From positions 124,001 through 188,000 of the forward strand of contig NZ_PGGM01000007.1 of NCBI RefSeq assembly GCF_003010965.1: a stretch of 64,000 nucleotides of DNA. The letters run 5' to 3'. The DNA comes from Phyllobacterium sophorae. Its GTDB lineage: Bacteria; Pseudomonadota; Alphaproteobacteria; Rhizobiales; Rhizobiaceae. This document shows positions 11,368 through 33,001 of this stretch, in pieces (positions within the stretch are counted from its first letter, which is position 1; every line of letters starts with the position of its first letter). Under the pieces are notes generated by a model that saw only the letters and a list, made by a program, of their open reading frames with translations, made no database searches and was not told where the DNA came from. Both the position numbers and the translations under genes were made by a program.

Positions 11368-11380
11368 GCGGTCCGGGCGG

Positions 11381-12340: not shown

Positions 12341-12349
12341 GGCCGCCCA

Positions 12350-14833: not shown

Positions 14834-15784
14834 TTAGAGCTGGCCCGGCCAGCGGCCCTGACCGAGCAGGTGCACGGCGGTAACAATCCGCCGGAAGCTT
14901 GAGCGGGCGCGTTCCACGCTGTGGCGCGAGCGTAGATACGCGTGTACGAGACCGGGCTCGTTGTTCCAGATCGCCTTACCGCCTGCTGCAAGGATCTTGT
15001 CGCGATAGTGGCGTCCATCATCCGACAATGGGTCGCATTCGGCGGAGATGATGATCGTGTCCGGCAATCCGCTGAAATCAGTGTCATTGAGGGGTGCAAA
15101 ACGTGGGTCGGTTGACCAGTTGAAACCGCCGCCACGGACTTTGGCATAGTAAAGCGCATCGCGCGTCGTCAGCATAGGCGCGTCGGCATGGGTGAGATAG
15201 GAGCCTTGATCAGTTGCTCCACCGAGCCCCGGATAGATGAGAACCTGACCGATTGGCGCACGTTCGTGACGGCGCACGTGATGGGAGACTGCGGCCACCA
15301 GATTGCCGCCGGCGCTATCGCCACACAAGACGATGGGCAATCCAAAGGTCGAATCCACGTACTCAAAAGTAGCAAGGCAATCCCTGAAGGCGGAAGGGTG
15401 CAAATGTTCCGGCGCGAGCCTGTAGTCTACCGAGATGACGCGAAATCCGGTGGCTTCGCAGATTTCGGCACAGACATCATCATGGCTGTCGAGCCCGCCA
15501 ACAACAAAGCCTCCGCCGTGAAAATAAAGGCAGATAGCTTCAGGATCGCTGTCGCGCTTTTCGTAGATGCGTATCGGTATCTTGCGGTCCCTTGCATCGA
15601 TGAAACGATCCGCCGATGCCACCGATTCCGGGTAGCCGGCGAAGAATGCCCGGCACATGGTGTTGTAGACCTCGCGCTGCTGCTCCACCGAAAGATCGAC
15701 TGCATCGGACGGATAGAAGCTGTTCGTCCGTTCTATGAACGCCCAGGTCTCCGCGTCGATAAGGGTGGAATAGTCAGTCGTCAT
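14834..15784 (-). CDS. Alpha/beta hydrolase of the hormone-sensitive-lipase family
   Basis: This is a cytoplasmic esterase-type hydrolase of 316 residues. The HSL oxyanion motif reads YFHGGGFVVGG, the nucleophile motif CGDSAGGNL, the acid lies in SAECDPLSDDG and the catalytic His in GLVHAYL, so all key residues are intact. The ATG at 15784 overlaps the stop of the caiD-like gene (ATGA) and has GGAAGGGA just upstream, which decides the start against an ATG at 15796. It is the last gene of the gamma-butyrobetaine/carnitine-type operon. Hydrolysis of an O-acylcarnitine or a related ester would fit that context, but this is inference; family members are promiscuous. Confidence 0.85.
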   Translation of the reverse strand: MTTDYSTLIDAETWAFIERTNSFYPSDAVDLSVEQQREVYNTMCRAFFAGYPESVASADRFIDARDRKIPIRIYEKRDSDPEAICLYFHGGGFVVGGLDSHDDVCAEICEATGFRVISVDYRLAPEHLHPSAFRDCLATFEYVDSTFGLPIVLCGDSAGGNLVAAVSHHVRRHERAPIGQVLIYPGLGGATDQGSYLTHADAPMLTTRDALYYAKVRGGGFNWSTDPRFAPLNDTDFSGLPDTIIISAECDPLSDDGRHYRDKILAAGGKAIWNNEPGLVHAYLRSRHSVERARSSFRRIVTAVHLLGQGRWPGQL

Positions 15785-16563
15785 TTTCCCTTCCACACGG
15801 GTTCTCGCTTTTCGGCGAAGGCCTTGAAGCCTTCCTGCCCATCTTCGGATGCGTAGAGCGTGTCGACTGTACGGAATTTGCGTTTCGTAATCCAGTTCAT
15901 CGCTTCCTGGAAACCCATGCTTTCAGCCTCACGCGCGACTTCCTTGATGGCGGCGAAGACCAGCGGCGGGCCGCTTTCCAGCATGCGTGCGATCTCCCAG
16001 ACGCGCTCCATCAATTTATCCTTGGGCAGGACCTCATTGACCAGACCCCAGCGATGCGCCTCTGCAACGTCCATCCAGCGTCCAGTGAGAAGCAGGTCCA
16101 TCGCCACATGATAGGGGATGCGCTTTGGCAGCTTGACGGTTGCCGCGTCGGCGAGCGTTCCAGCGCGAATTTCCGGTAAGGCAAAACTGGAATGATCGGA
16201 GGCGTAGATCAGGTCGCAGGAGAGGGCGAGCTCGAATCCGCCGCCAACTGCCATGCCATTGACCGCCGCAATTACCGGCTTGTTGAGATCGAGCAGTTCC
16301 TGCAAGCCGCCGAAGCCGCCGACGCCATAGTCTCCATCAACCGCGTCGCCGCCGGCGGCGGCCTTCAGGTCCCAGCCTGCGCAGAAGAACTTGTCGCCCT
16401 CGGTCTGTACGATCGCGACACGCAACTCCGGATCGTCGCGGAATTTCTGGAATGTCTCTCCAAGGAGCCGGCTTGTCATGAGGTCGATGGCATTGGCCTT
16501 TGGCCGGTCTAGCGTGACTTCGAGAATGCCGCCTTCGCGGCGCGTCCGGACTACATCGTTCAC
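15781..16563 (-). CDS. caiD: Crotonobetainyl-CoA hydratase-like enoyl-CoA hydratase (CaiD type)
   Basis: This crotonase-fold enzyme of 260 residues probably interconverts crotonobetainyl-CoA and L-carnitinyl-CoA. The sequence tracks CaiD closely from memory: LEVTLDRPKANAID near the N terminus, KFFCAGWDLKAAA, PVIAAVNGMAVGGGFELAL and the C-terminal FAEKREPVWKGK. The start is a GTG at 16563 forming a GTGA overlap with the upstream ligase stop, preceded by GGGAG; a longer upstream frame has no support. Neighbouring acyl-CoA dehydrogenase, CoA ligase and carnitine dehydrogenase genes support a carnitine role. A generic enoyl-CoA hydratase is the alternative. Confidence 0.82.
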   Translation of the reverse strand: MNDVVRTRREGGILEVTLDRPKANAIDLMTSRLLGETFQKFRDDPELRVAIVQTEGDKFFCAGWDLKAAAGGDAVDGDYGVGGFGGLQELLDLNKPVIAAVNGMAVGGGFELALSCDLIYASDHSSFALPEIRAGTLADAATVKLPKRIPYHVAMDLLLTGRWMDVAEAHRWGLVNEVLPKDKLMERVWEIARMLESGPPLVFAAIKEVAREAESMGFQEAMNWITKRKFRTVDTLYASEDGQEGFKAFAEKREPVWKGK

Positions 16564-18638
16564 TTCAGCTCTCCCTTCGTCACCATCAGCGCATCGGCGA
16601 TCCAAACGCCGTGTCCCGTGCCGCACACCAGCAGGGGGTTGATATCAAGTTCGGTGATGCGGCCCGCATTGTTCATGGCGAAAGCAGCGATTCCCATGAT
16701 AGCGTCCAGCGCCGCTTCAAGATCTGCTTGTGGCTTGCCGCGATAGCCATTGAGCAGCGGAAACATGCGTAGCGCACGCAGCGCGGCCCCAGTGTCCTCG
16801 CGGCTCGAGGGCAGGAGCATCGTCACCGTATCCTGCAACAATTCCACCAAGACGCCGCCTGTACCAAGCGTCATGACCGGGCCGAACTGCGGATCGTCAG
16901 TAATGCCGACGATAAGCTCGGCAACCGCTCCCGTCACCATCCGCTCGACATACAGACCGGAACCAAGACCCGCGAGATCATTGGCTGCGGATCTGACCGC
17001 ATCGGCATCGCGCAAATTGAGACGGACGGCGTTGCGCTCCGATTTGTGGGCGATACCCAGTGCCTTGAGCGCCACCGGATAGCCAAGGTGGTCGGCAATC
17101 GCGACTGCTTCATCGGAGGATGTGCAGCAACGCCCATCGGCTACGGGCAGACCAGCCTTTTTGAGAATGGCCTTGGCCTCAGCTTCGTCTGGTGTGTTCA
17201 TATCGCCCGGGATTTCATTGGCGGACATAGCCATTGAAGCAGCAAGCGGCTTTTTCCACGCCTTGCCGATGAAGGCCGCCGCTTCTGCCGCGTCGAAGGC
17301 TTCGGTGATGCCGCAGAGCGGAGCGATGCCTTTTTCCATTAGGCCGGCCATATATTCTTCCGGGATATTCTCCGGTATCGACGCTACTATGGCCCCTTTG
17401 GCCTTGTTGGTTTTCAACGCGGTTTCAAAGCCACGGACGGTGGACCACCAGTCCACGTCCGAGCAACGGTCCTTGCGGGGAAAATCGAGGACGAGACAGC
17501 TGAGCGAGAATTCGCCCGACACCATGGCAGTAAAAGTCTCGGTCAGCGCCGGCTCGTTGTTCCAGATGAAGGTGTGGTAATCGAGCGGATTGGCGACGGC
17601 GACGAGCGGGCCAAGCGTGGACTTTACGCGGGCGCGATGCTCGGGAGTCAGAGGAGGGAAGACAACATCCCGGCCTTCGGCGCTATCCGCCATGACGGAA
17701 GCTTCGCCGCCTGAACAACTCATGGAACACAGTGTGTTGCCGTCAAGCGGGCCATGTACGTGCAGCAGTTTCAACGTTTCGAGAAAAGAGGCGATCGAGT
17801 TGACGCGCGCGATTCCGAGCCGCTTAAGAAATGCGCCGGATGCGGCATCCGATCCCGCCAGCGATGCCGTATGCGAAATGGTCGCCGCCCGCGCCTGTGC
17901 GGAACGGCCGACCTTCATCGCAACAATAGGCTTGCCGAGTTCGCGGGCGCGTTTGGCTAACGCCTCGAACTTAGCGGCCGATTGAAAAGCCTCGATGTGG
18001 AGACCCAATGCGGTCACACGCTCGTCCTCCAGCAGCGCGATGGCCATGTCCGGCAGGCCGGTCTGCGCCTGGTTGCCTGCGGTCATCACATGGGCGATGG
18101 GCAGACCGCGTGTCTGCATTGTCATGTTGATGGCGATGTTGGAAGATTGGGTGATGATGGCGACGCCGCGCTCATCCGGGCGAAGCCGGCGCCCTCCATG
18201 CTGGTCCGGCCAGAGCAGGGCGCCATCGCAATAGTTGATCAGCCCGTAGCAATTCGGGCCGATGATGGGCATATCGCCAGCTGCTTCAACCAGTTCTCCC
18301 TGGAGCCTTGCTCCATCCTCATCATCGGCACCCGCCTCCAAAAAGCCGGAAGCGTAACACACGGCAACGCCTGCACCGGCTTCGCGCAATTCCCGGACAA
18401 TACTGAGCGTCAGAAAGCGGTTGACGCCGACAAAGGCCGCATCGGGGCTGCCCGGCAGATCAGCAACGGAGCGATATACCTTGAGGCCGAGGATTTCATC
18501 ATGCTTGGGATGCACCGGCCAGATTTCGCCGGCAAAACCCATTTTCTGGGATTGCTTGATAACTTCGGTGGCTTGAAGGCCCCCGAAGACAGCTATGGTT
18601 TTCGGTCGTAACAGACGATCGAGCTTATGCGATGCCAT
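16560..18638 (-). CDS. NDP-forming acyl-CoA synthetase (acetate-CoA ligase/succinyl-CoA synthetase-like fusion), possible gamma-butyrobetaine-CoA ligase
   Basis: This protein of 692 residues has the ACD (acyl-CoA synthetase, ADP-forming) architecture. An N-terminal CoA-binding Rossmann domain (RLLRPKTIAVFGG to about residue 130) is followed by succinyl-CoA-ligase-like domains (GPNCYGLINY, ATISHTASLAGSD) and a C-terminal ATP-grasp domain (from about residue 460, with TLGTGGVLVELLQDTV and ITELDINPLLV). Known members form acyl-CoA with ADP and phosphate through a phospho-histidine. The ATG at 18638 has ACGGAG upstream. Placed between an acyl-CoA dehydrogenase and a CaiD-like hydratase, it may activate gamma-butyrobetaine or carnitine, the job done by AMP-forming CaiC/BcoA enzymes elsewhere. 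That substrate is inference. Confidence 0.8.
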   Translation of the reverse strand: MASHKLDRLLRPKTIAVFGGLQATEVIKQSQKMGFAGEIWPVHPKHDEILGLKVYRSVADLPGSPDAAFVGVNRFLTLSIVRELREAGAGVAVCYASGFLEAGADDEDGARLQGELVEAAGDMPIIGPNCYGLINYCDGALLWPDQHGGRRLRPDERGVAIITQSSNIAINMTMQTRGLPIAHVMTAGNQAQTGLPDMAIALLEDERVTALGLHIEAFQSAAKFEALAKRARELGKPIVAMKVGRSAQARAATISHTASLAGSDAASGAFLKRLGIARVNSIASFLETLKLLHVHGPLDGNTLCSMSCSGGEASVMADSAEGRDVVFPPLTPEHRARVKSTLGPLVAVANPLDYHTFIWNNEPALTETFTAMVSGEFSLSCLVLDFPRKDRCSDVDWWSTVRGFETALKTNKAKGAIVASIPENIPEEYMAGLMEKGIAPLCGITEAFDAAEAAAFIGKAWKKPLAASMAMSANEIPGDMNTPDEAEAKAILKKAGLPVADGRCCTSSDEAVAIADHLGYPVALKALGIAHKSERNAVRLNLRDADAVRSAANDLAGLGSGLYVERMVTGAVAELIVGITDDPQFGPVMTLGTGGVLVELLQDTVTMLLPSSREDTGAALRALRMFPLLNGYRGKPQADLEAALDAIMGIAAFAMNNAGRITELDINPLLVCGTGHGVWIADALMVTKGELK

Positions 18639-18649
18639 CGAATGCTCCG

Positions 18650-19813
18650 TTATGCGCCATGCGGGCGGAGCAGGGCACGGGAAATAATGTGCCGCTGGAT
18701 TTCGGATGTACCTTCCCAAATGCGCTCTACGCGCGCGTCGCGCCAGATACGCTCAAGCGGCAGATCGTCCATCAATCCCATGCCGCCGTGAATCTGGATC
18801 GCCTCGTCGGCCACGAAAGCCAGCATCTCGGTGGCCTTGAGCTTGGCCATCGCCATATCCTGGTCGGTCACTGTGCCCTGATCGAATTTCCAGCCCGCCT
18901 CGAAAGTAAGCAGGTCCGCAGCTTTCAATTCTGTCGCCATATCCGCCAGTTTGAACGATACGCCTTGGAATTTACCGATCTGCTGACCGAACTGCTGGCG
19001 TTGCGCCGCATATTCAATGGCATGGCCGAGCGCCCGTTCGGCACGGCCAAGGCAAGTCGCTGCCACCTGCAGGCGCGTTGCTCCGAGCCAGGTATTCGCG
19101 ACCTCGAAACCCTTGTGCACTTCGCCAAGTATCGCATCCTGCGGCAGACGGCAATCGTCGAACTCGATGATGGCATTGGTGTAACCGCGATGCGAGACGT
19201 TCCGATAGCCCTCGCGAATGGTCATGCCGGGATGACCTTTATCGACAAAGAAGGCAGTGATTTTCTTCTTTTTGCCGCGCGGCGTGTCTTCCTCGCCGGA
19301 GGCGACGAAGAGGATGACGAAATCCGCTTCAAGCGCGTGGCTGATAAAGTGTTTCGTCCCATTGACGACCCAGTCGCCACCCTTTTCGATGGCTGTCGCC
19401 TTCATGCCGCGCAGGTCGGAACCGGCACCCGGTTCCGTCATGGCCAGGCAGTCTGATTTTTCACCGCGGATGCAGGGATAAAGGTACTTTTCCTTCTGCG
19501 CATCAGTACCCGCAAGCAGGATGTTCGACGGACGACCGACACAGGTCCAGTGCAGCGCATAATTGGCGCGGCCCAGCTCTTTTTCATAGAGCAGCCAGGT
19601 CACCGTATCGAGGCCGGCCCCGCCTACGGATTCCGGCATGTTTGCCGCATAAAGCCCAGCCTCCATGGCCTTATGCTTCAGTTCCTCGGCAAGTTCCTTG
19701 CGCAAGATTCCCGTGCGCTCGACTTCCGCTTCGTGCGGGTAGAGTTCGTTCTCAACAAAGGCCCGGGTCGTCTCGACGATCAGCATTTGCTCCTCCGAAA
19801 GACCGAATTCCAT
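18650..19813 (-). CDS. Acyl-CoA dehydrogenase, probable gamma-butyrobetainyl-CoA dehydrogenase (CaiA/BcoB role)
   Basis: This FAD-dependent acyl-CoA dehydrogenase of 387 residues has the usual three-domain layout. Visible motifs are CLAMTEPGAGSDL (flavin/substrate), GTKHFISHALEADF, RAERALGHAIEYAAQRQQFG, and near the C terminus QIHGGMGLMDDLPLERIWRDARVERIWEGTSEIQ, which matches the family signature. The start ATG at 19813 lies 5 bp after the carnitine dehydrogenase stop and gives a standard N terminus (MEFGLSEEQ). In this operon it would oxidise gamma-butyrobetainyl-CoA to crotonobetainyl-CoA. Its electrons would go to ETF, whose genes are not in the window. The substrate is inferred from neighbours. 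Confidence 0.85.
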   Translation of the reverse strand: MEFGLSEEQMLIVETTRAFVENELYPHEAEVERTGILRKELAEELKHKAMEAGLYAANMPESVGGAGLDTVTWLLYEKELGRANYALHWTCVGRPSNILLAGTDAQKEKYLYPCIRGEKSDCLAMTEPGAGSDLRGMKATAIEKGGDWVVNGTKHFISHALEADFVILFVASGEEDTPRGKKKKITAFFVDKGHPGMTIREGYRNVSHRGYTNAIIEFDDCRLPQDAILGEVHKGFEVANTWLGATRLQVAATCLGRAERALGHAIEYAAQRQQFGQQIGKFQGVSFKLADMATELKAADLLTFEAGWKFDQGTVTDQDMAMAKLKATEMLAFVADEAIQIHGGMGLMDDLPLERIWRDARVERIWEGTSEIQRHIISRALLRPHGA

Positions 19814-19817
19814 AGCG

Positions 19818-20882
19818 TTACCCCTTCTTTTTCTTGGGCTTGCTGGTTTTTGCCTTCTCAGCTGCTTTGGATGTGGCTGGCTTTTGTGCCAGCTTCGACA
19901 GCCGTTTGGTGTAGTCCTTGTAGAGGGCGCCAGCGCCCCAGCCCTTACCCTTGTTCTGGCGGGAGAGGGCCTCCATGATGGCAACCAGATTGTCATCGCG
20001 GATGCGCTCGAGTTCACGAATGGACAGGCCATGTGCCTGTTCGTCTGACTGGTTTGCGATCTTGTCGACCAGTTCCTCGTCAAGTTCCGGAACGTCCATC
20101 AGCTTGGTCCAGGGCCATGACAGGCACGGGCCGAACTGGGCAATGAAGTGGCGCATGCCAGCTTCGCCGCCCGCCACGCGATAAACCTGGAACATGCCCA
20201 TCTGCGCCCAGCGAATGCCGAACGAATAACGCATGATATCGTCGAGCTCCTCGACCGTGGTGATGTCGTCCTTGATCAGCCACAGTGCTTCGCGCCAGAC
20301 GGCTTCCAGTAGCCGGTCGCCAACAAAGGCCTCGATTTCCTTGCGGATCACGACTGGTTTCATGCCGATGGAGGCGTAAAGTTCCCGGGCTTTTTCCACG
20401 GCTTCCGGCGATGTCAGTTTACCGCCGACGATTTCAACCAGCGGCAAGAGATAAACAGGGTTATAGGGGTGGCCGACGACCAGCCGCTCCGGATGCTTCA
20501 TCGAGGTCTGCATATCCGATGGGAGGATCCCGGATGTGGACGAGCCAACGATCGCGTCAACTGCGGCGTGCTTGTCGATTTCGGCCAGGACCTTGTGTTT
20601 CAGGTCGAGCCTTTCCGGCACGCTTTCCTGAATGAAGTCGGCGCCGGTAACTGCTTCTTGAATAGTCTTGGCGAAGGTCAGCTTGCCTTCTTTTGGCAAT
20701 CCATCCGGCAGCATGGTCTTGTAGGCGCGGCGAGAATTCTTCATCACCTCGCTAACCTTGCGCTCTGCTTCGGGGTCAGGATCGAAAATCGATACGTCGA
20801 TGCCGTTGAGAATGAGGCGGGCTACCCAGCCCGCACCGATAACACCGCCACCGACAGCGGCAGCCCTGCGAATACCTGTCAT
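19818..20882 (-). CDS. lcdH: L-carnitine 3-dehydrogenase
   Basis: This NAD-dependent enzyme of the 3-hydroxyacyl-CoA dehydrogenase superfamily oxidises L-carnitine to 3-dehydrocarnitine. It has 354 residues. The N-terminal Rossmann motif AAVGGGVIGAGW is followed by QESVPERLDLKHKVL, GSSTSGILPSDMQ, HPYNPVYLLPLVEIVGG, EIEAFVGDRLLEAVWREALWL and YSFGIRWAQMGMF, all diagnostic of carnitine dehydrogenases. The C terminus is an unusual lysine-rich tail (KTSKPKKKKG) where some family members carry a fused thioesterase domain; here a matching thioesterase is a separate gene at 22941. The ATG at 20882 follows GGTGA by 5 nt; a GTG at 20891 that overlaps the BKACE stop is an alternative. Confidence 0.9.
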   Translation of the reverse strand: MTGIRRAAAVGGGVIGAGWVARLILNGIDVSIFDPDPEAERKVSEVMKNSRRAYKTMLPDGLPKEGKLTFAKTIQEAVTGADFIQESVPERLDLKHKVLAEIDKHAAVDAIVGSSTSGILPSDMQTSMKHPERLVVGHPYNPVYLLPLVEIVGGKLTSPEAVEKARELYASIGMKPVVIRKEIEAFVGDRLLEAVWREALWLIKDDITTVEELDDIMRYSFGIRWAQMGMFQVYRVAGGEAGMRHFIAQFGPCLSWPWTKLMDVPELDEELVDKIANQSDEQAHGLSIRELERIRDDNLVAIMEALSRQNKGKGWGAGALYKDYTKRLSKLAQKPATSKAAEKAKTSKPKKKKG

Positions 20883-20887
20883 TTTTC

Positions 20888-21793
20888 TCACCAGCCCTTT
20901 GTCAATTTCATGCGCTCACGGACCTCCTGGGGTCCGAGAATGCGGGCGCCCATGCCTTCGGCGACTTTCACCGCCCGCTCAACCAACGGGCCGTTGGTGG
21001 CAAGCACGCCCTTGTCGAGCCAGATATTGTCTTCAAGACCAACACGGATATTACCGCCTGCCAGCATGGCCATTGCTGCATAGGGCATCTGGTTGCGGCC
21101 GATGGAGAAAGCCGAGAACGTCCAGTTGGATGGGAGATTATTGGTAAGCGCCAGCAGTGTGCCGATGTCGTCCGGTGCACCCCATGGAATGCCCATGCAG
21201 AGCTGAACCATGACCGGATCATCCAGCAGTTTCTGGTCGTGGAGCCACTTGGCAAGAAGCAGATGCCCCGTGTCGAAGATTTCGACTTCCGGACGCACGC
21301 CTAAAGCCTGGATCTGCGCCGCCATTGCTTTCAGCATGGCCGGCGTGTTGGTCATGACGTAATCGCCTTCACCGAAATTCATCGTGCCGCAGTCGAGCGT
21401 GCAGATTTCCGGGCGAAGTTTGGCCACGTGCTCCAGCCGTTCGGTTGCGCCCGCCATGTCAGTGCCATTGGGCGAGGGCGGCATCGGCTGCTCGACGCTG
21501 CCGAGAGTAAGGTCACCGCCCATGCCGGCGGTGAGGTTCAGGACCATGTCGACGCCGGATGCCTTGATGTGCTCGACGACTTCCGTATAGAGCGTGATGT
21601 CGCGCGAACCCTTGCCCGTTTTCGGATCACGAACGTGAATATGCGCGATGGCGGCGCCGGCATTGGCGGCAGCAATGCATTCATCGGCAATCTGGCGCGG
21701 GGTGACCGGTACTTTGTCGGAACGGCCTGTGGTATCGCCCGCACCGGTCACGGCGCAAGTGATGAATACTTCGCGGTTGGGGGTAAGTCCCAT
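20888..21793 (-). CDS. Beta-keto acid cleavage enzyme (BKACE, DUF849), probable dehydrocarnitine cleavage enzyme
   Basis: This TIM-barrel zinc enzyme of 301 residues belongs to the family that condenses a beta-keto acid with acetyl-CoA and releases acetoacetate plus a new acyl-CoA. Zn-ligand region [42 protein letters not shown] and [11 protein letters not shown] are visible. With dehydrocarnitine as substrate the products are acetoacetate and betainyl-CoA, as known for the BKACE member found beside carnitine dehydrogenase. The ATG at 21793 has GGAG 7 nt upstream and lies 71 bp from the divergent regulator gene, so this is the first gene of the six-gene operon. Confidence 0.85.
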
Positions 21794-21864
21794 GGCAGTG
21801 CTCCCATTATTTTGGTTATCCTGATCATGCCCCGATTGCCAAGCCATGCTTTGCAATATACGAA

Positions 21865-22854
21865 ATGAAATTGATGAATAACGAAACATCGCCACTCTTT
21901 TTGCCGAACACAAAGACGCTGGACGTGACTGTTCTCGTCTTTAGCGGCGCATCGCTCATGTGTGTGGCCTCGACAATCGACCCGATGCGCGCAGCGAATC
22001 GCGTCTCGGGTAGCAATCTCTTCAAATGGCGGATCGTCTCGCTCGATGGCGAACCGACAATGACGACCTGTGGCTTGCCAATTGCGGTTTCTGGCTCATT
22101 TGATACATCAGAAAAAGGTGATATGCTATTGGTTGTAGGCGGTTTTGGCACGTCCGATATCGCCCGCACTACTTTTACTGCCAATCTGCGCCGCGCCGTT
22201 CACAATTACCAGATGATTGGCGGTATCGAGGCAGGTTCCTGGCTGCTTGGCCGTGCGGGACTGCTATCGGGGCGCAAGGCGACCACCCATTGGGAAGACA
22301 TGGAGGAGTTCACGGCGGAGTTTCCGGACGCCGACATTCGTCCGGATCGATATGTCATCGATGGACCCGTCTTCACCAGCGGCGGCGCTTCGCCGACCTT
22401 CGATCTGATGCTCCATTTGATCCGGTCACGCTATGGCATGTCGGTGGCTCTCGATGTTGCGAGCGTGTTCATCTATGACGAAGCACATGCTTCGAACGAT
22501 GCGCAGCCACTTGTTTCGCTCGGACGGCTCGATGATGTGCACCCGAAACTGGCGGGGGCCATCCGCTTGATGGAAAGCCATATTGATACGCCGTTGACCA
22601 TTGGCGCGATTGCCAAGAGATGTGGCCTGAGCGCCCGAAGTCTGGAAAAGATATTCGCGAAAGCTGTCGGCGAGGGGCCGGGGCGCTACTATCTGCGCCT
22701 GCGGTTGAAGGTAGCGCGGCGGCTGATCACCGATACGAGATCCCCGCTTGCCGATATCGCGGCGCGCACGGGCTTTTCGTCGGCAGCGGCGTTCACCCGG
22801 ACCTTCCGAAGTTTCGAGGGTAAACCGCCCAGTGCTTTCCGGAGTGTTCACTGA
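21865..22854 (+). CDS. cdhR: GlxA/CdhR-type AraC-family regulator of carnitine catabolism
   Basis: This regulator of about 329 residues has an N-terminal DJ-1/PfpI-like (GATase1-like) ligand domain (about residues 18-190, with [16 protein letters not shown] and [11 protein letters not shown]) and a C-terminal AraC helix-turn-helix pair ([19 protein letters not shown] and [20 protein letters not shown]). This architecture is that of CdhR and GbdR, activators of carnitine and betaine catabolism in pseudomonads. It is divergent from the carnitine operon with a 71-bp gap and precedes the thioesterase gene, so it most likely controls both. A second in-frame ATG at 21874 is possible. The symbol reflects inferred orthology, not proof. 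Confidence 0.8.
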
Positions 22855-22940
22855 GAGTCGCTTTTGACAAAGCAGCACTATTCAACTTCATGTTTCAACC
22901 TGCGATCAAATAGCCGCGCCATTCCAGACAGGAGCCCAGA

Positions 22941-23432: not shown

Positions 23433-24327
23433 TTCCGCCGAACTGCTCAATGAGCCAGCGCTCGAATTGGCGGATGCGGGTTTCGCCGACGCGCTCCTTG
23501 CGGCAGATCATGTACCAGGCGCCGGGCTGCGGAACTTTCAGCGGGAACGGAGCGACGAGCCGCCCAGCCTTGATGTCATCAGCCACGAGAAAATCCGGTG
23601 CGACGGCGAGGCCTTGACCGTCCAGAGCCGATTGCAGGGCGGCAAGATAGGTGTCGAACTTCAACGTTACCGCCTGCGCCGTATCGGCGATGCCTGCCGC
23701 CTCAAGCCACGTGCCCCAATCTTCAGGGGAGGTATAAAGCGCGAGGCGTGGCACTTTGGCCAGAGCCTGAGCCCCCGCGTCGCCTTCGATCCGCCCGGCC
23801 ACTTGCGGACTGCACACGGGTCGCATTTCCGCCTTGACCAGCAGGCGGTAGTGCAGGTTCATCCGCTCCGGCCGAGTGGTATGGATGATGCCGATATCGG
23901 AACTGTCGATATTCAGTTCCCAATCGAGCTGGCTGGTGCCGATGCGGATGGCGAGATTGGGATTGACCTTGCGAAAGTCCGTCAGTCGCGGGATCAGCCA
24001 GCGGATGGCGAAGGTCGCATAGGTTTCGAGCGCTAAATCGTCGGTGGTGCCGATCCGATTGATCAGCGCCGTACCGCGCGCGATCTTTTCGAACGCATCT
24101 CGCATGTAAGGATAGTAAAGTGTGCCGGCGTCCGTCAGCGACACGCCACGTGGCAGGCGTTCGAACAGCTTGACGCCGAGGATGGCTTCAAGCTCGGCGA
24201 TGCGGTGGCTGATGGCGGACTGGGTCACGCCAAGTTCCTCTCCAGCAAGCCGGAAACTCAACAATCGGGCGGATGCTTCGAATGCCCGAAGGGAGCCAAG
24301 CGGCGGAATGCGGGGCTTCGACATCAT
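23419..24327 (-). CDS. LysR-family regulator (GcvA-like), divergent from the betaine oxygenase gene
   Basis: This LysR-type regulator of about 302 residues has the N-terminal helix-turn-helix FRLAGEELGVTQSAISHRIAEL and the GcvA/AmpR-type motif PPLGSLRAFEASARLLSF. The C-terminal co-inducer domain begins near residue 90 (ETYATFAIRWLIPRL is the typical subfamily segment). Two ATGs (24327, 24324) are equally possible. It is divergent from the Rieske oxygenase gene, 151 bp away, so it probably regulates that operon and itself. A GcvA-like regulator would fit control of the glycine and one-carbon end of the pathway. The ligand is unknown. Confidence 0.85.
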   Translation of the reverse strand: MMSKPRIPPLGSLRAFEASARLLSFRLAGEELGVTQSAISHRIAELEAILGVKLFERLPRGVSLTDAGTLYYPYMRDAFEKIARGTALINRIGTTDDLALETYATFAIRWLIPRLTDFRKVNPNLAIRIGTSQLDWELNIDSSDIGIIHTTRPERMNLHYRLLVKAEMRPVCSPQVAGRIEGDAGAQALAKVPRLALYTSPEDWGTWLEAAGIADTAQAVTLKFDTYLAALQSALDGQGLAVAPDFLVADDIKAGRLVAPFPLKVPQPGAWYMICRKERVGETRIRQFERWLIEQFGGTTSA

Positions 24328-24354
24328 GGCTTCGGAACCTCGAAAAAAGATGCG

Positions 24355-24367
24355 TGAATATAATTCA
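24355..24367. promoter_or_regulatory. LysR-type dyad in the LysR/Rieske divergent region
   Basis: The half-sites TGAAT and ATTCA are perfect inverted copies around a 3-bp centre (TGAATATAATTCA). The dyad lies 28 bp upstream of the LysR start and meets the T-N11-A rule of LysR binding sites. It is a candidate operator for the adjacent LysR protein. Confidence 0.45.
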
Positions 24368-24478
24368 TGCCTTTATGAGTAACGATCGCTTGAACGGCAC
24401 GCAATGCGGAATCATTCTAATCTGCGACGCGTCTCACAGAAAATAAGCGTCCTGAAACAATCTTCTTCGGAGAATGAC

Positions 24479-25723
24479 ATGGGTGCAGAACAGGTATTTG
24501 CAGAAATTGCACCGGCTCTGGACAAGATCGATAAATTGATCGCCGAACACCGGCCGGGCCACGGGCTGGTTCGTGCTTTCTACATGGATCCGGATGTCTA
24601 TGCCCGCGACATGGAGCGGGTGTTCCGGCGGCATTGGCACTGCATCGGTCATGCGAGCATCGTCCCCAATGCCGGAGATTTCGAGCTTTTCAAGATCGAC
24701 AGCGAGGCGGTGATTGTTTCACGCACCGAAGACGGGTCGATCCATGCCTTTTTGAATGTTTGCCGCCATCGCGGTGCCGAAGTCTGCACCAAGCAGAAGG
24801 GTAATGCACGCTTCTTCGTTTGTCCCTATCATGCCTGGACATACAGCAATGATGGCAGTCTGCGCGCGGCGCGACTGATGCCGAAGGATTTCGATCGCAG
24901 CGCCCACGGTTTGAAGAAGCTGCATGTACGCGTGGCGGAAGGACTGATCTTCATCTGCTTTGCCGACGAACCGCTGGATTTCTCCATCATTGAGCAGTCG
25001 CTTCGCACCACCTGCGGTCAATATGGCTGGGCGGACGCCAAAGTCGCACACCGGGAAACCTATCCCGTCGATTCCAATTGGAAGCTGGCTGTCGAAAACT
25101 ACGTGGAATGCTACCATTGCGGCCCGGCGCACCCGGAATATTCGCAGACGCACGCGCTGGAACAGCCAGCTGAAAAGATTGTCGAGCTCAATGCGCGCAT
25201 GGAGCAGCGCACCTGCGCTCTTGGTATTGATATTGCCACCGGCGATAACTGGCAGAATTCCGCACAGGGCCAGGAGGCAATCCACACATTCCGCTATGCA
25301 CTGTATGATGGCGTCTCCAGTGGCAGCGAGGATGGTTCGCCGGTCGGGCCCTTGATGGGGCGGTTTTCGGAGTTCGATGGCGGCGTCACCTCCATTCACC
25401 TGGGCGGCACGAGTTTCCTCGTCTGCTATCCGGACCACGGCATGATCTACCGCTTCATTCCAAAGACCGTCGATAGCTGCGAGATGGAATTGATCTGGCT
25501 GGTGCGCGGCGATGCGGAAGAGGGCAAGGATTACGACCTCGAAAAGCTGACCTGGCTGTGGAAGGTGACGACTGCGGAAGACAAGACGATCATCGAACAC
25601 ACGGCGCGCGGGGTTCGCTCGCACTACTTTGTGCCGGGGCCGATTGCGCCGATGGAGTATAACGAATTGCGGTACATCCAGTGGTACCTCGATGAAATCG
25701 GGCCGGTCCTCATTACAGCATGA
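24479..25723 (+). CDS. gbcA: Rieske non-haem iron oxygenase, probable glycine betaine demethylase (GbcA type)
   Basis: This aromatic-ring-hydroxylating-dioxygenase alpha-subunit-like protein has 414 residues. The Rieske [2Fe-2S] ligands read CRHRG and then CPYHAW (CxH...CxxH), and the mononuclear iron site region is ENYVECYHCGPAHPEY. GbcA-type enzymes oxidatively demethylate glycine betaine to dimethylglycine plus formaldehyde. The ATG at 24479 is chosen for GGAG 6 nt upstream; a 25-codon upstream extension is not conserved in my memory of the family. It leads an operon with two dimethylglycine/sarcosine-type dehydrogenases. The ferredoxin reductase partner (GbcB) is not in the window. Stachydrine or carnitine oxygenases are related alternatives. 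Confidence 0.82.
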   Translation: MGAEQVFAEIAPALDKIDKLIAEHRPGHGLVRAFYMDPDVYARDMERVFRRHWHCIGHASIVPNAGDFELFKIDSEAVIVSRTEDGSIHAFLNVCRHRGAEVCTKQKGNARFFVCPYHAWTYSNDGSLRAARLMPKDFDRSAHGLKKLHVRVAEGLIFICFADEPLDFSIIEQSLRTTCGQYGWADAKVAHRETYPVDSNWKLAVENYVECYHCGPAHPEYSQTHALEQPAEKIVELNARMEQRTCALGIDIATGDNWQNSAQGQEAIHTFRYALYDGVSSGSEDGSPVGPLMGRFSEFDGGVTSIHLGGTSFLVCYPDHGMIYRFIPKTVDSCEMELIWLVRGDAEEGKDYDLEKLTWLWKVTTAEDKTIIEHTARGVRSHYFVPGPIAPMEYNELRYIQWYLDEIGPVLITA

Positions 25724-25741
25724 GACCACGGGAGACTTTGT

Positions 25742-28189
25742 ATGTCTGATTTTCCAACTTCGGCGCGCGTCGTCATTATCGGTGGCGGAGCGGTCGGCGT
25801 CTCCTCGCTTTACCATCTTGCCAAGGCAGGCTGGACCGATTGCGTGCTGCTTGAAAAGAACGAGCTGACATCGGGTTCAACCTGGCATGCAGCGGGCAAT
25901 GTGCCGACATTTTCGGCCTCCTGGTCGGTGATGAACATGCAACGCTACTCGGCCGAGCTCTATCGTGGTCTGGCCGCCGAGGTCGACTACCCGATGAATT
26001 ATCACGTCACCGGATCGCTGCGCCTTGCGCATACCAAGGAGCGGATGCGCGAATTCCAGCGCGTGAAGAGCATGGGGCGATACCAGGGCATGGATATCGA
26101 CGTGCTGGGCGTTGACGAAATCAACGGCCGCTATCCGTTCATTGCAACGCATGAGCTTGAGGGCGCCCTCTACGATCCCAATGATGGCGATATCGACCCT
26201 GCACAGCTGACGCAGGCTCTGGCCAAGGGTGCCCGCGACATGGGAGCGAAGATCATCCGCTTCTGTCCGGTCACCGGGGCGCGCCGCGAGAACGATGAGT
26301 GGGTGATCTCCACACCTCAGGGTGACATCCGCTGCGAGTATGTGGTCAATGCGGCGGGTTATCGGGCGCAGGAGATCGGCAAGCTGTTTGGCCGCGACGT
26401 GCCGATGATGGTGATGAGCCATCAATATCTGCTGTTCGACGAAATCCCCGAAATCGCTGCCTGGTCTCGCGAAAACGGCCACAAGCTGCCGTTGCTGCGC
26501 GACGTCGATTCGTCCTATTACCTGCGGCAGGAAAAGAACGGCATGAATCTCGGGCCATATGAACGCAATTGCCGTGCGCATTGGGCGACTGCCGATGATC
26601 CAATGCCGGATGATTTCTCGTTTCAGCTGTTCCCCGATGATCTTGAGCGCCTCGACTGGTACCTCAATGATGCCATTGCCCGTGTACCAATTCTCGGTAC
26701 CGCGGGCCTGTCGAAGGTGATCAATGGTCCAATCCCCTACGCGCCGGATGGCAATCCGCTGATCGGTCCGATGCCCGGCGTACCCAATGCATTCGAAGCC
26801 TGTGTCTTCACCTTCGGCATCGCGCAGGCTGGCGGAGCAGGCAAGGTTCTGGCCGAATGGGTCACGGAAGGCGCGACGGAATGGGATATGTGGTCGTGCG
26901 ATCCGCGCCGTTTCACCGCCTTTACCGATACTGAATATTGCGTTGCCAAGGGTGTGGAGGTGTACGGGCACGAATATGCCATTCATTTTCCGCGCCATAC
27001 GTGGCCGGCGGGCCGCAACAAGAAGGTTTCACCTATCCATGATCGGATTGCCAGGCTGGGTGCGCAGTTCGGTGCCTATAATGGCTGGGAACGCGCAAAC
27101 TGGTATGCGCAGCCGGGCGACGATGTTTCGGAGGAATCAATGCAAACGTTCCTTCGTGATGGTCCGTGGCAGCAGCGTATCCGCGAAGAGTGCCATGCCG
27201 TGCGCGACGCTGTTGGCATTCTCGATCTGCCCGGTTTCTCGCGCTTCAAAGTCAGCGGCGAGGGCGCTCGCGAATGGCTGTCGACGCTGGTCACCGGTAT
27301 CGTGCCGAAGCCTGGACGGATCGGCCTTGGCTATTTCTCCGACGACAAGGGCCGGGTCGTCACCGAAATGTCCATTATGGCGATCGATGAGAATGTGTTC
27401 TTCCTGATCACCGCCGGTGTTGCCGAATGGCATGATCGCGACTGGCTGCTCAATCATTTGCCGAACGGCCGTTCAATCAGCATCGCCAACGTCACGGAAG
27501 CTTTCTCTTGCCAGATCGTTACCGGGCCGAAGGCCCGTGATCTGTTCCGGGATATCTGCGATGCGGATCTCGAGAAAACCTGGCTTTCGCACCAGACGAC
27601 TCAGATCGCCGGGCGGTATTGCCAGTTGGTGCGCGTTTCCTTTGCCGGTGAGCTTGGCTGGGAGGTGCATACGAAAGTTGCCGACACCGCCGCGATCTTC
27701 GATGCGATATGGGAAGCAGGACAGAAATACGGGATCAAGCCCTTCGGCATGTTCGCACTGGATTCCCTGCGCCTCGAAAAGGGCTATCGCGCCTGGAAAG
27801 GCGACCTTTCCACTGACTACACTCCGCTGCAAAGCGGACTTGAACGTTTCATCAAGTGGGAAAAGCCGGAATTCATCGGCAAGGCCGCTCTGGAACGTGA
27901 AAAGCAGCAGGGCGTGAAGAAACGCTTCGTCACGCTGACTGTGGATGCCGGAGACTGTGACGCGCCTTATATGTCCACGCTTTGGCACAATGGCGCTATT
28001 GTTGGTGAAACTACTTCCGGGGGCTGGGGGCACCGGATCGACAAATCGATCGCGCTTGGCATGCTGAAGACCGAACTCACCGAACCCGGGACGGAAGTCG
28101 AGGTGGAAATCTTCGGCGAGCGCTACAAAGCGACCGTCCATCCTGACCAGCCGCTTTGGGATCCCAAGAACGAAAGAATACGCGCATGA
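25742..28189 (+). CDS. FAD-dependent dehydrogenase with GcvT domain (dimethylglycine/sarcosine dehydrogenase family), copy 1
   Basis: This two-domain enzyme of 815 residues has an N-terminal DAO-type FAD domain (VVIIGGGAVGVSSLYHLAKAGW) and, from about residue 430, a GcvT/aminomethyltransferase-like tetrahydrofolate domain (SRFKVSGEGAREWLSTL, GELGWEVHT, LDSLRLEKGYRAWKGDL). The TWHAAG motif near residue 45 carries the histidine that binds FAD covalently in dimethylglycine dehydrogenase. The family oxidises N-methyl groups and passes the carbon to folate. The ATG at 25742 follows GGGAG and lies 18 bp after the Rieske gene. It ends in an ATGA overlap with the second copy. Whether this copy handles dimethylglycine or sarcosine is unclear. 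Confidence 0.85.
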   Translation: MSDFPTSARVVIIGGGAVGVSSLYHLAKAGWTDCVLLEKNELTSGSTWHAAGNVPTFSASWSVMNMQRYSAELYRGLAAEVDYPMNYHVTGSLRLAHTKERMREFQRVKSMGRYQGMDIDVLGVDEINGRYPFIATHELEGALYDPNDGDIDPAQLTQALAKGARDMGAKIIRFCPVTGARRENDEWVISTPQGDIRCEYVVNAAGYRAQEIGKLFGRDVPMMVMSHQYLLFDEIPEIAAWSRENGHKLPLLRDVDSSYYLRQEKNGMNLGPYERNCRAHWATADDPMPDDFSFQLFPDDLERLDWYLNDAIARVPILGTAGLSKVINGPIPYAPDGNPLIGPMPGVPNAFEACVFTFGIAQAGGAGKVLAEWVTEGATEWDMWSCDPRRFTAFTDTEYCVAKGVEVYGHEYAIHFPRHTWPAGRNKKVSPIHDRIARLGAQFGAYNGWERANWYAQPGDDVSEESMQTFLRDGPWQQRIREECHAVRDAVGILDLPGFSRFKVSGEGAREWLSTLVTGIVPKPGRIGLGYFSDDKGRVVTEMSIMAIDENVFFLITAGVAEWHDRDWLLNHLPNGRSISIANVTEAFSCQIVTGPKARDLFRDICDADLEKTWLSHQTTQIAGRYCQLVRVSFAGELGWEVHTKVADTAAIFDAIWEAGQKYGIKPFGMFALDSLRLEKGYRAWKGDLSTDYTPLQSGLERFIKWEKPEFIGKAALEREKQQGVKKRFVTLTVDAGDCDAPYMSTLWHNGAIVGETTSGGWGHRIDKSIALGMLKTELTEPGTEVEVEIFGERYKATVHPDQPLWDPKNERIRA

Positions 28190-30630
28190 GTTCGCTACCC
28201 ACCAAAGCGCGCGCCGTCATCATCGGCGGCGGCATTTCCGGCTGTTCTGTTGCCTATCATCTCGCCAAGCTCGGCTGGACCGATGTCGTTCTGCTGGAGC
28301 GCAAGCAGTTGACCTCCGGCACCACGTGGCACGCTGCAGGGCTCATCGGCCAGCTGCGCGCCTCGCAGAACATGACACGGCTGGCGAAATATTCCGCCGA
28401 CCTCTATGTCAAGCTGGAGGCGGAAACCGGGGTCTCCACCGGTATGCGCCAGGTGGGCTCGATCACCGTGGCTCTGACCGAGGAACGCAAGCACGAGATT
28501 TACCGGCAGGCTTCGCTGGCGCGTGCCTTCGATGTCGATGTTCGTGAAATATCTCCAAATGAAGTCAAGGAGATGTATCCGCATCTTAACATTGAAGATG
28601 TGGTGGGCGCGGTGCATCTGCCGCTCGACGGACAGTGCGACCCGGCCAATATCGCCATGGCTCTTGCCAAGGGCGCACGCCAGCGCGGCGCCAAAATTGT
28701 CGAAAACGTCAAAGTCACCGGCGTTCTCAAAAAGCACGGCCGCGTAACCGGCGTGACCTGGGTGCAAGGCGAAGAACAGGGCACGATCGAGACCGACGTG
28801 GTGATCAACTGCGCCGGCATGTGGGCACGCGATCTGGCGGGAACATCGGGTGTCACCGTGCCGCTGCATGCCTGCGAGCATTTCTATCTTGTTACCGAGG
28901 CCATCGAGGGGCTTGGGCGCTTGCCCGTGCTGCGCGTTCCGGATGAATGCGCCTATTACAAGGAGGATGCCGGCAAGATGATGCTGGGCGCCTTTGAGCC
29001 GGTCGCCAAGCCTTGGGGCATGAACGGCATTTCCGAAGATTTCTGTTTCGACCAGCTCCAGGAGGATTTCGAGCATTTCGAGCCGATCCTTGAAATGGGC
29101 GTCAACCGCATGCCTATGCTCGGTACAGCCGGGATCCACACATTCTTCAACGGTCCGGAAAGCTTCACCCCCGATGACCGCTATTATCTCGGAGAAGCGC
29201 CGGAACTTGGCGGCTATTGGGTCGCTGCGGGCTATAATTCGATCGGTATTGTCTCGTCCGGCGGTGCGGGGATGGCACTCGCTCAATGGATTCATGATGG
29301 CGAGGCGCCGTTCGACCTGTGGGAGGTGGATATCCGCCGCGCGCAGCCATTCCAGAAGAACAGGCGTTATCTGAAGGAACGTGTCTCTGAGACACTGGGC
29401 CTGCTCTATGCCGATCATTTCCCCTACCGGCAGATGGCGACATCCCGAAATATCCGCCGCTCACCCATTCATGAACATCTTAAGCAGCGTGGCGCGGTCT
29501 TCGGTGAAGTCGCCGGATGGGAGCGCGCAAACTGGTTTGCCAAGGACGGTCAGGAGCGCGAATACCGCTATTCCTGGAAACGGCAGAACTGGTTCGACAA
29601 TCAGCGCGAAGAGCATCTTGCCGTGCGCAATGGAGTCGGCCTGTTCGACATGACTTCGTTCGGCAAGATCCGCGTCGAGGGCCGTGATGCTTTGCTGTTC
29701 CTGCAGAAGCTTTGCGCTAACCAGCTCGACGTCGAGCCTGGCCGCATCGTTTACACCCAGATGCTCAATAATCGCGGGGGGATCGAAAGCGACCTGACGA
29801 TTACACGCCTGTCGGAAACAACTTTCTTTGTCGTTGTCCCCGGTGCGACCCTGCAGCGTGACCAGGCCTGGATGCGCAAGCACCTCAAGGACGAATTCGT
29901 GGTGATTACCGATGTAACCCCGGCGGAATCGGTGCTGTGTCTGATGGGACCCAAATCTCGCGAACTGATCCAGAAGATCAGTCCAAATGATTTCTCGAAC
30001 GAAGCCAATCCGTTCGGGACCGCGCGCGAGATCGAGATCGGTATGGGCCTCGCACGCGCGCACCGCGTGACCTATGTCGGCGAACTCGGTTGGGAGCTGT
30101 ATGTCTCCACGGATCAGACGGCGCATGTATTCGAGGCCATCGAGGAGGCGGGACAAGAGCTGAGCCTCAAGCTTTGCGGTCTGCACACGCTGGATTCGTG
30201 CCGCATTGAAAAGGCGTTCCGCCACTTCGGCCACGACATCACCGACGAGGATCATGTGCTGGAGGCAGGGCTTGGGTTTGCAGTGAAAGTCGATAAGGGT
30301 GATTTCATTGGCCGCGATGCCGTGCTGAGAAAGAAGGCAGCCGGGCTCGATCGCAGGCTCGTGCAGTTTCGTCTAAGTGATCCAGAGCCACTGCTTTTCC
30401 ACAATGAGGCCATTGTCCGTGATGGAGAGATTGTGGGAACAATCACCTCGGGCAATTATGGCCACCATCTCGGCGGCGCTATCGGCCTGGGTTACGTTCC
30501 GAGCAAGGAAGAAAATCCGGAACAGATTCTGGCTTCAAATTACGAGATCGAGATCGCCGGGGTGCGGGTGAAGGCCGAGGCTTCTTTAAAGCCGATGTAC
30601 GATCCAAAGGCTGAACGTGTACGGATGTGA
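28186..30630 (+). CDS. FAD-dependent dehydrogenase with GcvT domain (dimethylglycine/sarcosine dehydrogenase family), copy 2
   Basis: This protein of 814 residues has the same architecture as the preceding one: FAD motif AVIIGGGISGCSVAYHLAKLGW, flavinylation motif TWHAAGL, and a C-terminal GcvT domain (GKIRVEGRDALLFLQKL, VGELGWELYV, LDSCRIEKAFRHFGHD). The ATG at 28186 forms an ATGA overlap with the first copy, so a longer upstream frame is rejected. The two proteins are paralogous but clearly diverged, which suggests distinct substrates (dimethylglycine and sarcosine) rather than a recent duplication. The C-terminal DHVLEAGLGFAVKVDKGDF resembles mammalian dimethylglycine dehydrogenase more than copy 1 does. 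A GC-rich hairpin follows the stop. Confidence 0.85.
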   Translation: MSSLPTKARAVIIGGGISGCSVAYHLAKLGWTDVVLLERKQLTSGTTWHAAGLIGQLRASQNMTRLAKYSADLYVKLEAETGVSTGMRQVGSITVALTEERKHEIYRQASLARAFDVDVREISPNEVKEMYPHLNIEDVVGAVHLPLDGQCDPANIAMALAKGARQRGAKIVENVKVTGVLKKHGRVTGVTWVQGEEQGTIETDVVINCAGMWARDLAGTSGVTVPLHACEHFYLVTEAIEGLGRLPVLRVPDECAYYKEDAGKMMLGAFEPVAKPWGMNGISEDFCFDQLQEDFEHFEPILEMGVNRMPMLGTAGIHTFFNGPESFTPDDRYYLGEAPELGGYWVAAGYNSIGIVSSGGAGMALAQWIHDGEAPFDLWEVDIRRAQPFQKNRRYLKERVSETLGLLYADHFPYRQMATSRNIRRSPIHEHLKQRGAVFGEVAGWERANWFAKDGQEREYRYSWKRQNWFDNQREEHLAVRNGVGLFDMTSFGKIRVEGRDALLFLQKLCANQLDVEPGRIVYTQMLNNRGGIESDLTITRLSETTFFVVVPGATLQRDQAWMRKHLKDEFVVITDVTPAESVLCLMGPKSRELIQKISPNDFSNEANPFGTAREIEIGMGLARAHRVTYVGELGWELYVSTDQTAHVFEAIEEAGQELSLKLCGLHTLDSCRIEKAFRHFGHDITDEDHVLEAGLGFAVKVDKGDFIGRDAVLRKKAAGLDRRLVQFRLSDPEPLLFHNEAIVRDGEIVGTITSGNYGHHLGGAIGLGYVPSKEENPEQILASNYEIEIAGVRVKAEASLKPMYDPKAERVRM

Positions 30631-31876: not shown

Positions 31877-31897
31877 ATTATCCTCCTATTGCCGAAT

Positions 31898-32887: not shown

Positions 32888-33001
32888 CAACAACCGCCAC
32901 TTTCGCGTTTGAATGGTCCAGGATATGGAAAAATAATATCATGTTTCACCGCGATACTGGCACTTCGAGGCGGTGACAAAAAGACAGCATCCTGATAGAA
33001 A

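Follow-up and report, generated by a model that had tools for sequence, protein, structure and literature searches.

Among the closest described systems for gamma-butyrobetaine use is that of the rhizobium-like strain HK4/HK1349, a relative of Rhizobium/Agrobacterium, in which gamma-butyrobetaine is converted to carnitine by an aerobic route resembling fatty acid degradation, an L-carnitine dehydrogenase acts downstream, and, for HK4, a carnitine-dehydrogenase mutant has been described (excerpts of PMC2131755). In Sinorhizobium meliloti, L-carnitine catabolism proceeds through BKACE-type and dual carnitine dehydrogenase/thioesterase steps (Bazire 2019, as cited in an excerpt of PMC12482172). 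Here we analyze a 64,000-nucleotide stretch of Phyllobacterium sophorae DNA (contig NZ_PGGM01000007.1, positions 124,001 to 188,000; hereafter the window), focusing upon a carnitine-type operon and an adjoining arm that encodes a Rieske oxygenase (together 14834-30630), with a leftward extension from 7647 that encodes a transporter. An earlier sequence-only reading of this DNA had proposed that 14834-30630 is one contiguous region taking a trimethylammonium compound all the way to glycine, with its regulators at the hinge. Our analysis indicates that the locus probably comprises two separately controlled catabolic modules and an uptake module, which lie side by side. The chemistry of the first module is already known; what is added here is its gene-level distribution, its split thioesterase, its neighboring modules, and a distinct Rieske group.

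The HK4/HK1349 pathway was compared by its description rather than by enzyme sequences, and the excerpts of that report mention no Rieske or FAD/GcvT arm (FAD, flavin adenine dinucleotide). The S. meliloti system has the carnitine dehydrogenase, BKACE-type, and betainyl-CoA-to-betaine steps in common with the window, except that a single dual-function dehydrogenase also converts betainyl-CoA to betaine (excerpts of PMC12482172), whereas the window encodes an L-carnitine 3-dehydrogenase (CDH) and a thioesterase (TE) as two genes on opposite strands, together with an extra alpha/beta hydrolase within the operon. The Rhizobium phaseoli pRphaR630a island similarly combines a GlxA-type regulator, the gene series BKACE-CDH-acyl-CoA dehydrogenase (ACAD)-ligase-CaiD, an Opp-type ABC transporter, and a CocE gene in one region, but its CDH is fused to the TE, and neither an Abhydrolase_3 gene nor a Rieske/FAD-GcvT arm is found within the 20 kb read. 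The Escherichia coli cai operon shares the CaiD-like hydratase and acyl-CoA dehydrogenase steps, after which the window adds CDH and BKACE; the nucleoside diphosphate-forming (NDP-forming) ligase of the window presumably stands in place of E. coli CaiB/CaiC.

A predicted gamma-butyrobetaine and carnitine operon

Families were assigned using Pfam and NCBIfam profile searches with curated cut-offs, solved relatives were taken from Protein Data Bank (PDB) matches, and gene starts were adjusted. Every family named in the sequence-only reading was recovered at its place, namely BKACE, CDH, ACAD, CoA ligase, CaiD-like hydratase, two hydrolases/thioesterases, a CdhR-type regulator, the Rieske protein, and two FAD/GcvT proteins. 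Six minus-strand genes begin with a BKACE gene (20888-21793; PF05853, 320.6 bits; PDB 3c6c, 275.8 bits), the product of which is proposed to be the 3-dehydrocarnitine:acetyl-CoA cleavage enzyme. This is followed by CDH (19818-20882), which lacks a C-terminal thioesterase domain, an ACAD (18650-19813; Acyl-CoA_dh_N/M/1; best PDB match 2vig, a short-chain acyl-CoA dehydrogenase) proposed as the gamma-butyrobetainyl-CoA dehydrogenase, an NDP-forming acyl-CoA ligase (16560-18638; CoA_binding/Succ_CoA_lig/ATP-grasp_5) proposed as the gamma-butyrobetaine--CoA ligase, a CaiD-like putative crotonobetainyl-CoA hydratase of the ECH family (15781-16563; best NCBIfam model PRK03580, 314.7 bits), and, as the last gene, an Abhydrolase_3 hydrolase of the hormone-sensitive-lipase type (Abh3; 14834-15784; PF07859, 180.7 bits). 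Because these genes are separated by spacers of 4, 5, or 11 bases or overlap by 4 bases at GTGA/ATGA junctions, 14834-21793 looks like a single transcription unit. The base composition of 14834-30630 is not distinct from its surroundings in the window. Divergent from the operon on the plus strand are an AraC-family regulator with a DJ-1/PfpI domain (21865-22854; GbdR/CdhR-like by Pfam and the GbdR model) and a free-standing 4HBT thioesterase, proposed to act upon betainyl-CoA (22941-23432; PF13279, 103.2 bits).

The assignment of CDH is the most direct, as the protein exceeds the curated cut-off of NF005716 (605.9 versus 592 bits) while covering profile positions 1-340 of 495, and this cut-off was passed in none of 14 control genomes. 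The CaiD-like protein has two glutamates at what we take to be the crotonase positions, while Abh3 contains the motifs HGGGF and GDSAGG; it is proposed to be a carnitinyl/betainyl-CoA thioesterase or an acylcarnitine esterase. As judged from family membership and conservation, the operon and its divergent AraC gene are well supported as a predicted pathway from gamma-butyrobetaine through carnitine to betaine, and this part of the sequence-only reading, including its GbdR/CdhR-like regulator, was borne out by the families, the conserved gene order, and the operator described below. In this module (14834-23432), the ligase would convert an imported quaternary amine to gamma-butyrobetainyl-CoA, ACAD would desaturate this to crotonobetainyl-CoA, and the CaiD-like hydratase would add water to yield L-carnitinyl-CoA, from which a hydrolase would free L-carnitine. 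CDH would then produce 3-dehydrocarnitine, which BKACE and acetyl-CoA would convert to acetoacetate and betainyl-CoA. A thioesterase would release glycine betaine from the latter; this role is proposed for the free 4HBT protein, which the alpha/beta hydrolase may assist or supplant.

Conservation of the operon

A protein search with the ligase at E <= 1e-150 returned matches in 100 of 199 Rhizobiaceae genomes, own genome counted. Forty of these loci, as stretches of 14 to 20 kb, were picked by hand (best matches first, then spread), and 26 window proteins were placed on each. In 38 of the 40, AraC, BKACE, CDH, ACAD, ligase, and CaiD were all present in the order of the window; the remaining two (L052 and L058) have no BKACE or CDH match. 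A scan of named genomes confirmed 576 loci, and all counts given below for named loci refer to those 64 of the best 80 with a length of at least 19 kb; these overlap partly with the family-genome loci (e.g., L203 and L064), and repeats were kept. BKACE, CDH, ACAD, ligase, and CaiD were present in all 64, AraC in 62, and the gene order of the window in 62, while Abh3 was found in 56, TE in 10 (L184 at 35%, a fused form in L203, and the eight full loci closest to the window, described below), and the Rieske gene in 8. Since this gene order is repeated in many genomes, the arrangement is not due to chance. The sequence-only reading had named a gene-order comparison as a check of its proposal, and the order of the operon held in nearly all loci of both sets, whereas the Rieske gene was nearby in 8 of the 64 named loci.

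The eight full loci closest to the window (79-89% for the ligase), seven of which are from named Phyllobacterium and one from a 'Rhizobiales bacterium', retain the window arrangement as far as their flanks reach, with the exception of P. salinisoli (L136), in which the operon is kept and the transporter and CocE are absent from that place. A shorter locus of another 'Rhizobiales bacterium' entry (L193; ligase 94% over part of its length) agrees with the window arrangement. The operon, which is widespread, outlines at the level of genes how gamma-butyrobetaine may be used across the Rhizobiaceae, with the NDP-forming ligase as its likely entry enzyme. In L052 and L058, the operon is reduced to AraC-ACAD-ligase-CaiD, and a stretch matching another Rieske protein (34-36%) lies alongside.

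Proposed release of the thioesters

The free TE corresponds to positions 351-495 of NF005716 and so matches the C-terminal thioesterase half of the fused CDH-thioesterase found elsewhere. Among the 40 loci, CDH carries a fused thioesterase domain in 12, lacks one in 26, and is absent from 2, while a free TE occurs only in L041 and L042, both from the genus of the window. Among the 26 loci in which CDH lacks the domain, 21 have Abh3 after CaiD, versus 1 of the 12 with the fusion (L064); weaker Abh3-like genes lie at a greater distance, 6-7 kb off, in L066 and L071. This split tracks two ligase sequence groups (about 62-87% versus about 47-58% to the window), L064 being the exception, and it therefore suggests, without proving, that Abh3 can take over from the thioesterase. 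Thus, the thioester-releasing step seems to have been solved in different ways, with a fused TE, a free TE, or possibly an alpha/beta hydrolase.

Several results weigh against the proposed course of this module. The CaiD-like hydratase scores below the PRK03580 cut-off of 500 bits, the AraC protein scores below that of GbdR model NF052371 (213.6 versus 480 bits), and the 25 of 27 NCBIfam families listed for the window include no CdhR model. No solved relative of the ligase has gamma-butyrobetaine as its substrate, the nearest being a dimethylsulfoniopropionate (DMSP) lyase. In the two named Bradyrhizobium loci, L184 and L198, the genes are arranged differently, AraC is missing, and the matches to ACAD and BKACE are weak. 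Of the 26 loci in which CDH is unfused, 5 contain neither TE nor Abh3 within the operon. A substitute gene at the Abh3 position was sought among the neighboring open reading frames in four of these five loci (two each, one in L078), all of which were MFS, cation efflux, FecCD, or of no family; in the fifth, L065, a transporter ATPase gene adjoins CaiD.

Two further observations concern related gene sets. An HD-domain protein of ~209 aa, which is not in the window, is often encoded between BKACE and CDH in operons that lack a thioesterase (L141:6075-6704 of Mesorhizobium and 50 other loci). It was found in 51 of 124 sequences scanned, repeats kept, and only one of these has a TE match. Its PhnZ/MIOX profile matches are weak, and the first six fold matches of a low-confidence model (pLDDT 59) were to PhnZ and the trimethylammonium oxygenase TmpB, none at E <= 0.001; as a guess, it could be an oxidative cleavage enzyme for carnitine or dehydrocarnitine. 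Separately, a second trimethylammonium-type cluster exists in the P. sophorae genome itself (L085; contig C6, 1-20000). It encodes a thioesterase 59% identical to the window TE, two GbdR-like AraC regulators and a CDH-like dehydrogenase (all below cut-off), SDRs, a BKACE, an aldehyde dehydrogenase, a Rieske oxygenase only distantly related to the GbcA-like proteins, and a GbcA-GbcB-like pair.

Probable separate regulation of the two catabolic arms

A matrix of 40 columns, built from 23 relatives outside the genus of the window, identified a conserved operator-like element on the minus strand between BKACE and AraC (21825-21864), which scores 37.3 bits, as compared with 14.0 for the next best place in the window and 9.5 for the best of five single-base shuffles. 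We infer that this element is bound by the AraC protein, which would induce the first module from this single operator. The ten best-scoring matrix places in the window do not include any upstream of the Rieske, TE, or CocE gene, although weaker or different sites are possible. The Rieske arm is preceded by a LysR gene of its own (23419-24327, minus strand; GcvA type, PRK11139 255.9 bits, cut-off 288), its presumed regulator, and the LysR-Rieske intergenic region (24328-24478) contains a TGAAT-ATA-ATTCA dyad that, compared by eye, has close but inexact counterparts in two relatives. Given one strong operator site, none before the Rieske gene, and a separate LysR, the carnitine operon and the Rieske arm appear to be under different regulators. 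A shared regulon was considered and rejected, as there is no second strong operator site in the window. The idea of regulators at the hinge of one region is accordingly not fully supported.

A distinct Rieske group in the second module

The described Rieske systems nearest to the second module (23419-30630) are the GbcAB glycine betaine monooxygenase and the Stc2 demethylase, which we take to be represented by 3vca/4qup and to act upon stachydrine. The window protein (24479-25723, plus strand), a Rieske non-heme iron oxygenase by Pfam and a proposed quaternary-ammonium N-demethylase, shares their overall Rieske/Ring_hydroxyl_A architecture at about 240-284 bits but falls below the GbcA cut-off, has another active-site segment, and has no reductase gene found beside it. 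It contains the [2Fe-2S] Cys-His motif and segments with two histidines and an aspartate, also found in its relatives, that presumably bind the iron. Its likeness to CntA is partial, with 6y8j aligned only over residues 56-249 (126.1 bits). Instead of the GbcA/Stc2-type segment ENNRECYHCxxNHP, it has ECYHCGPAHP. Identity is 73-85% inside the window-type group and 27-34% to GbcA-like proteins; for the three GbcA-like paralogues of the same genome, it is 31-34%, whereas those paralogues share 40-70% among themselves.

Two FAD/GcvT demethylase genes follow on the plus strand, DMG1 (25742-28189) and DMG2 (28186-30630, with an ATGA overlap with the preceding gene). Both encode DAO, FAO_M, GcvT, and GcvT_C domains and a WHAAG motif, which we assume to be the flavin site of dimethylglycine dehydrogenase (DMGDH) and sarcosine dehydrogenase. 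DMG1 is DMGDH-like, with 602.3 bits to the mitochondrial enzyme (5l46) versus 330.6 bits to dimethylglycine oxidase (1pj5), while DMG2, a proposed sarcosine (or dimethylglycine) dehydrogenase, scores 456.6 and 427.6 bits, respectively. Under LysR control, the Rieske oxygenase, with a reductase borrowed from elsewhere, would strip one methyl group off a quaternary amine, of which glycine betaine is the likeliest, and the two FAD/tetrahydrofolate enzymes would take dimethylglycine through sarcosine to glycine. The Rieske substrate, together with the transported ligand and the pairing of hydrolases with thioesters, is the least certain part of the proposal.

Window-type Rieske proteins (at least 73% identity; 73-93%) were found in 20 of the 199 genomes, including its own. 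The ligase is also held by 19 of these 20 as compared with 81 of the other 179 (Fisher p 9e-6, uncorrected for kinship). Rieske and ligase genes lie within 7 kb of each other in 5 of the 20 and 24 to 35 kb apart on the same contig in 6 (11 within about 35 kb). The arm adjoins the operon in all 11 fetched loci of the window's genus type (the eight full loci, L193, L041, and L042); close linkage is otherwise seen in G047, G140, and Rhizobium sp. CC-CFT758 and is not general. Among 13 other genomes from which the Rieske surroundings were fetched, DMG1-DMG2 adjoin the Rieske gene in 8; they also do so in Rhizobium sp. CC-CFT758 (L009), within 2 kb of CaiD. Other neighbors are MTTB (L098, and L102 together with DMG1-DMG2), MetE (L103 and Shinella L008), and, in L101, a GbcA-GbcB-like pair plus MesX with a MetE-type catalytic-domain gene; the surroundings are uninformative in L099, L100, and Shinella L007. 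Most of these neighbors serve demethylation or methyl transfer, as would suit a putative quaternary-amine demethylase. We found no description of such an arm beside this operon in the open-licence PMC literature searched, and this uncharacterized Rieske group is worth assaying.

Other results speak against a betaine-to-glycine role downstream of the operon. The window protein scores far below the cut-off of GbcA model NF058607 (284.4 versus 670 bits), and ECYHCGPAHP, which has the same letters in CntA, differs from the ECYHCxxNHP of GbcA-like proteins. The GbcA model fits three further Rieske proteins of the genome better (523.4, 514.1, and 415.2 bits, all below 670), and each of these has a reductase next door. 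In contrast, four reductases from this genome had no tblastn match within the window or at ten of its eleven genus-type loci. For three GbcB-type reductases of this genome, tblastn gave no match in the window and ten such loci, with one found beside a window-type Rieske gene in L101. The genome also contains five further open frames of >800 codons with GcvT domains. With three GbcA-like Rieske proteins accompanied by reductases and five more GcvT frames, the second module may therefore not be the main betaine route. In addition, most relatives of the operon have no second module nearby, the Rieske gene is on another contig than the ligase in 8 of the 20 genomes (drafts, distance undefined) and without a ligase match in 1, and DMG1-DMG2 are missing from 5 of the 13 Rieske surroundings. 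One contiguous region all the way to glycine was thus an overstatement, given the lack of an operator copy before the Rieske gene, the lack of an adjacent reductase, the three more GbcA-like Rieske proteins elsewhere, and the rarity with which the arms are linked outside the genus type of the window. The fifth Rieske protein of the genome, from the C6 cluster, matched no family at E <= 1e-60.

A proposed uptake arm

A transporter and hydrolase arm, which the earlier reading missed, recurs beside the operon in other genomes. It forms a plus-strand operon, CocE-SBP-OppB-OppC-OppDF (7647-14832), convergent upon the carnitine operon. The first gene encodes a CocE/NonD hydrolase of the S15/PepX type (7647-9650; TIGR00976, 259.9 bits, cut-off 66.3; Peptidase_S15, PepX_C) with no signal peptide by eye, and a similar gene is present in the R. 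phaseoli island (66%; L006). Next are an SBP_bac_5 solute-binding protein (SBP; 9772-11367; PF00496), with a twin-arginine signal (SRRDFLGRAA) read by eye in its own translation and in relatives, and OppB, OppC, and a fused OppD-OppF ATPase (11381-14832; BPD_transp_1 twice, ABC_tran twice). SBP_bac_5 proteins usually bind peptides or opines. In this third module, the Opp-type transporter, accompanied by a presumably cytoplasmic CocE hydrolase, would bring in the substrate or one of its conjugates. Gamma-butyrobetaine transport has been reported in an Agrobacterium (Nobile and Deshusses 1986, as cited in an excerpt of PMC6683767).

Alternative substrates

Two alternatives to free gamma-butyrobetaine as the substrate of the first module were considered. 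The best solved relative of its ligase is the ATP-dependent DMSP lyase DddX (7cm9; 225.7 bits over residues 38-701), which has the same single-chain NDP-forming architecture and phospho-histidine (excerpts of PMC8163506). A DddX-like lyase in an operon for DMSP or acrylate would account for this nearly full-length match and also for the best NCBIfam model of ACAD, acryloyl-CoA reductase, although the latter match is well under its cut-off (291.8 versus 640 bits). Counted along the alignment to DddX, His292 is kept, but Trp391 is replaced by His, Glu432 by Asp, and Phe435 by Trp. The Glu432 and Trp391 positions also vary in six ligase relatives (His, Gln, or Asn at Trp391), such that neither the cleavage glutamate nor the cation-binding tryptophan of DddX is retained. 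In DddX, a Glu432 to alanine mutation abolished activity (excerpts of PMC8163506). A DMSP or acrylate role was rejected on these residues, which place the ligase outside the DddX type, and is extremely improbable. We know of no role for CDH or BKACE with DMSP, and we read the ligase as a putative enzyme for a trimethylammonium acid rather than a lyase. It is somewhat unlikely, yet conceivable, that free gamma-butyrobetaine is secondary and that the operon instead serves a conjugate. Candidates would be an acylcarnitine, an ester or amide of carnitine, or a trimethylammonium compound resembling a peptide, which the Opp-type transporter would bring in and CocE and/or Abh3 would open. Both hydrolases are from ester/amide hydrolase families, and the usual ligands of SBP_bac_5 proteins would suit such a substrate. 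Opp-type genes adjoin the operon in 24 of the 40 loci (counted by hand from the protein placements; OppDF itself 23) and CocE in 8, with both also present in R. phaseoli; the corresponding named loci number 23 for OppB and 15 for CocE, plus 24 for OppDF and 21 for SBP, these last two and the TE count including weak matches (L200, L173, and L184) and the one fused TE (L203). However, the P. salinisoli operon does without both at that place, OppB is not within the flanks of 41 of the 64 named loci, the matrix scan places no copy of the operator before the transporter, and gamma-butyrobetaine or carnitine itself may be all that the SBP binds.

A similar question arises for the second module, which might act upon another methylated amine, for example by taking gamma-butyrobetaine to its dimethyl and methyl forms and free GABA (gamma-aminobutyric acid), or upon a plant betaine, and would then work beside rather than after the first. 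The low identity of its Rieske protein to the GbcA-like paralogues, the CntA-type letters of its active-site segment, the GbcA-GbcB-like pairs found elsewhere in the genome and beside the window-type Rieske gene of L101, and its own LysR and upstream region all point in this direction. We nonetheless find this rather unlikely, since the strong likeness of DMG1 to mitochondrial DMGDH fits dimethylglycine, and hence betaine, and since the module adjoins a putatively betaine-producing operon in every fetched locus of the window's genus type. A more elaborate proposal, that the window-type Rieske proteins are a third quaternary-ammonium oxygenase group, with a GbcA/Stc2-like body and a CntA-like segment, which relies on a borrowed reductase and acts alongside two FAD/folate demethylases, and that the island also imports and opens a trimethylammonium conjugate via the Opp-type transporter and CocE in place of free gamma-butyrobetaine, is quite doubtful as a whole.

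Neighboring genes

To the left of CocE are genes for an amino-acid-type ABC transporter (4114-7454) and an arginine-deiminase-family protein (3073-3960), which are kept in relatives L087 and L089. To the right of the island, ornithine aminotransferase and arginase genes (30665-32893) are convergent with it and are likewise kept beside the Rieske arm in L088.

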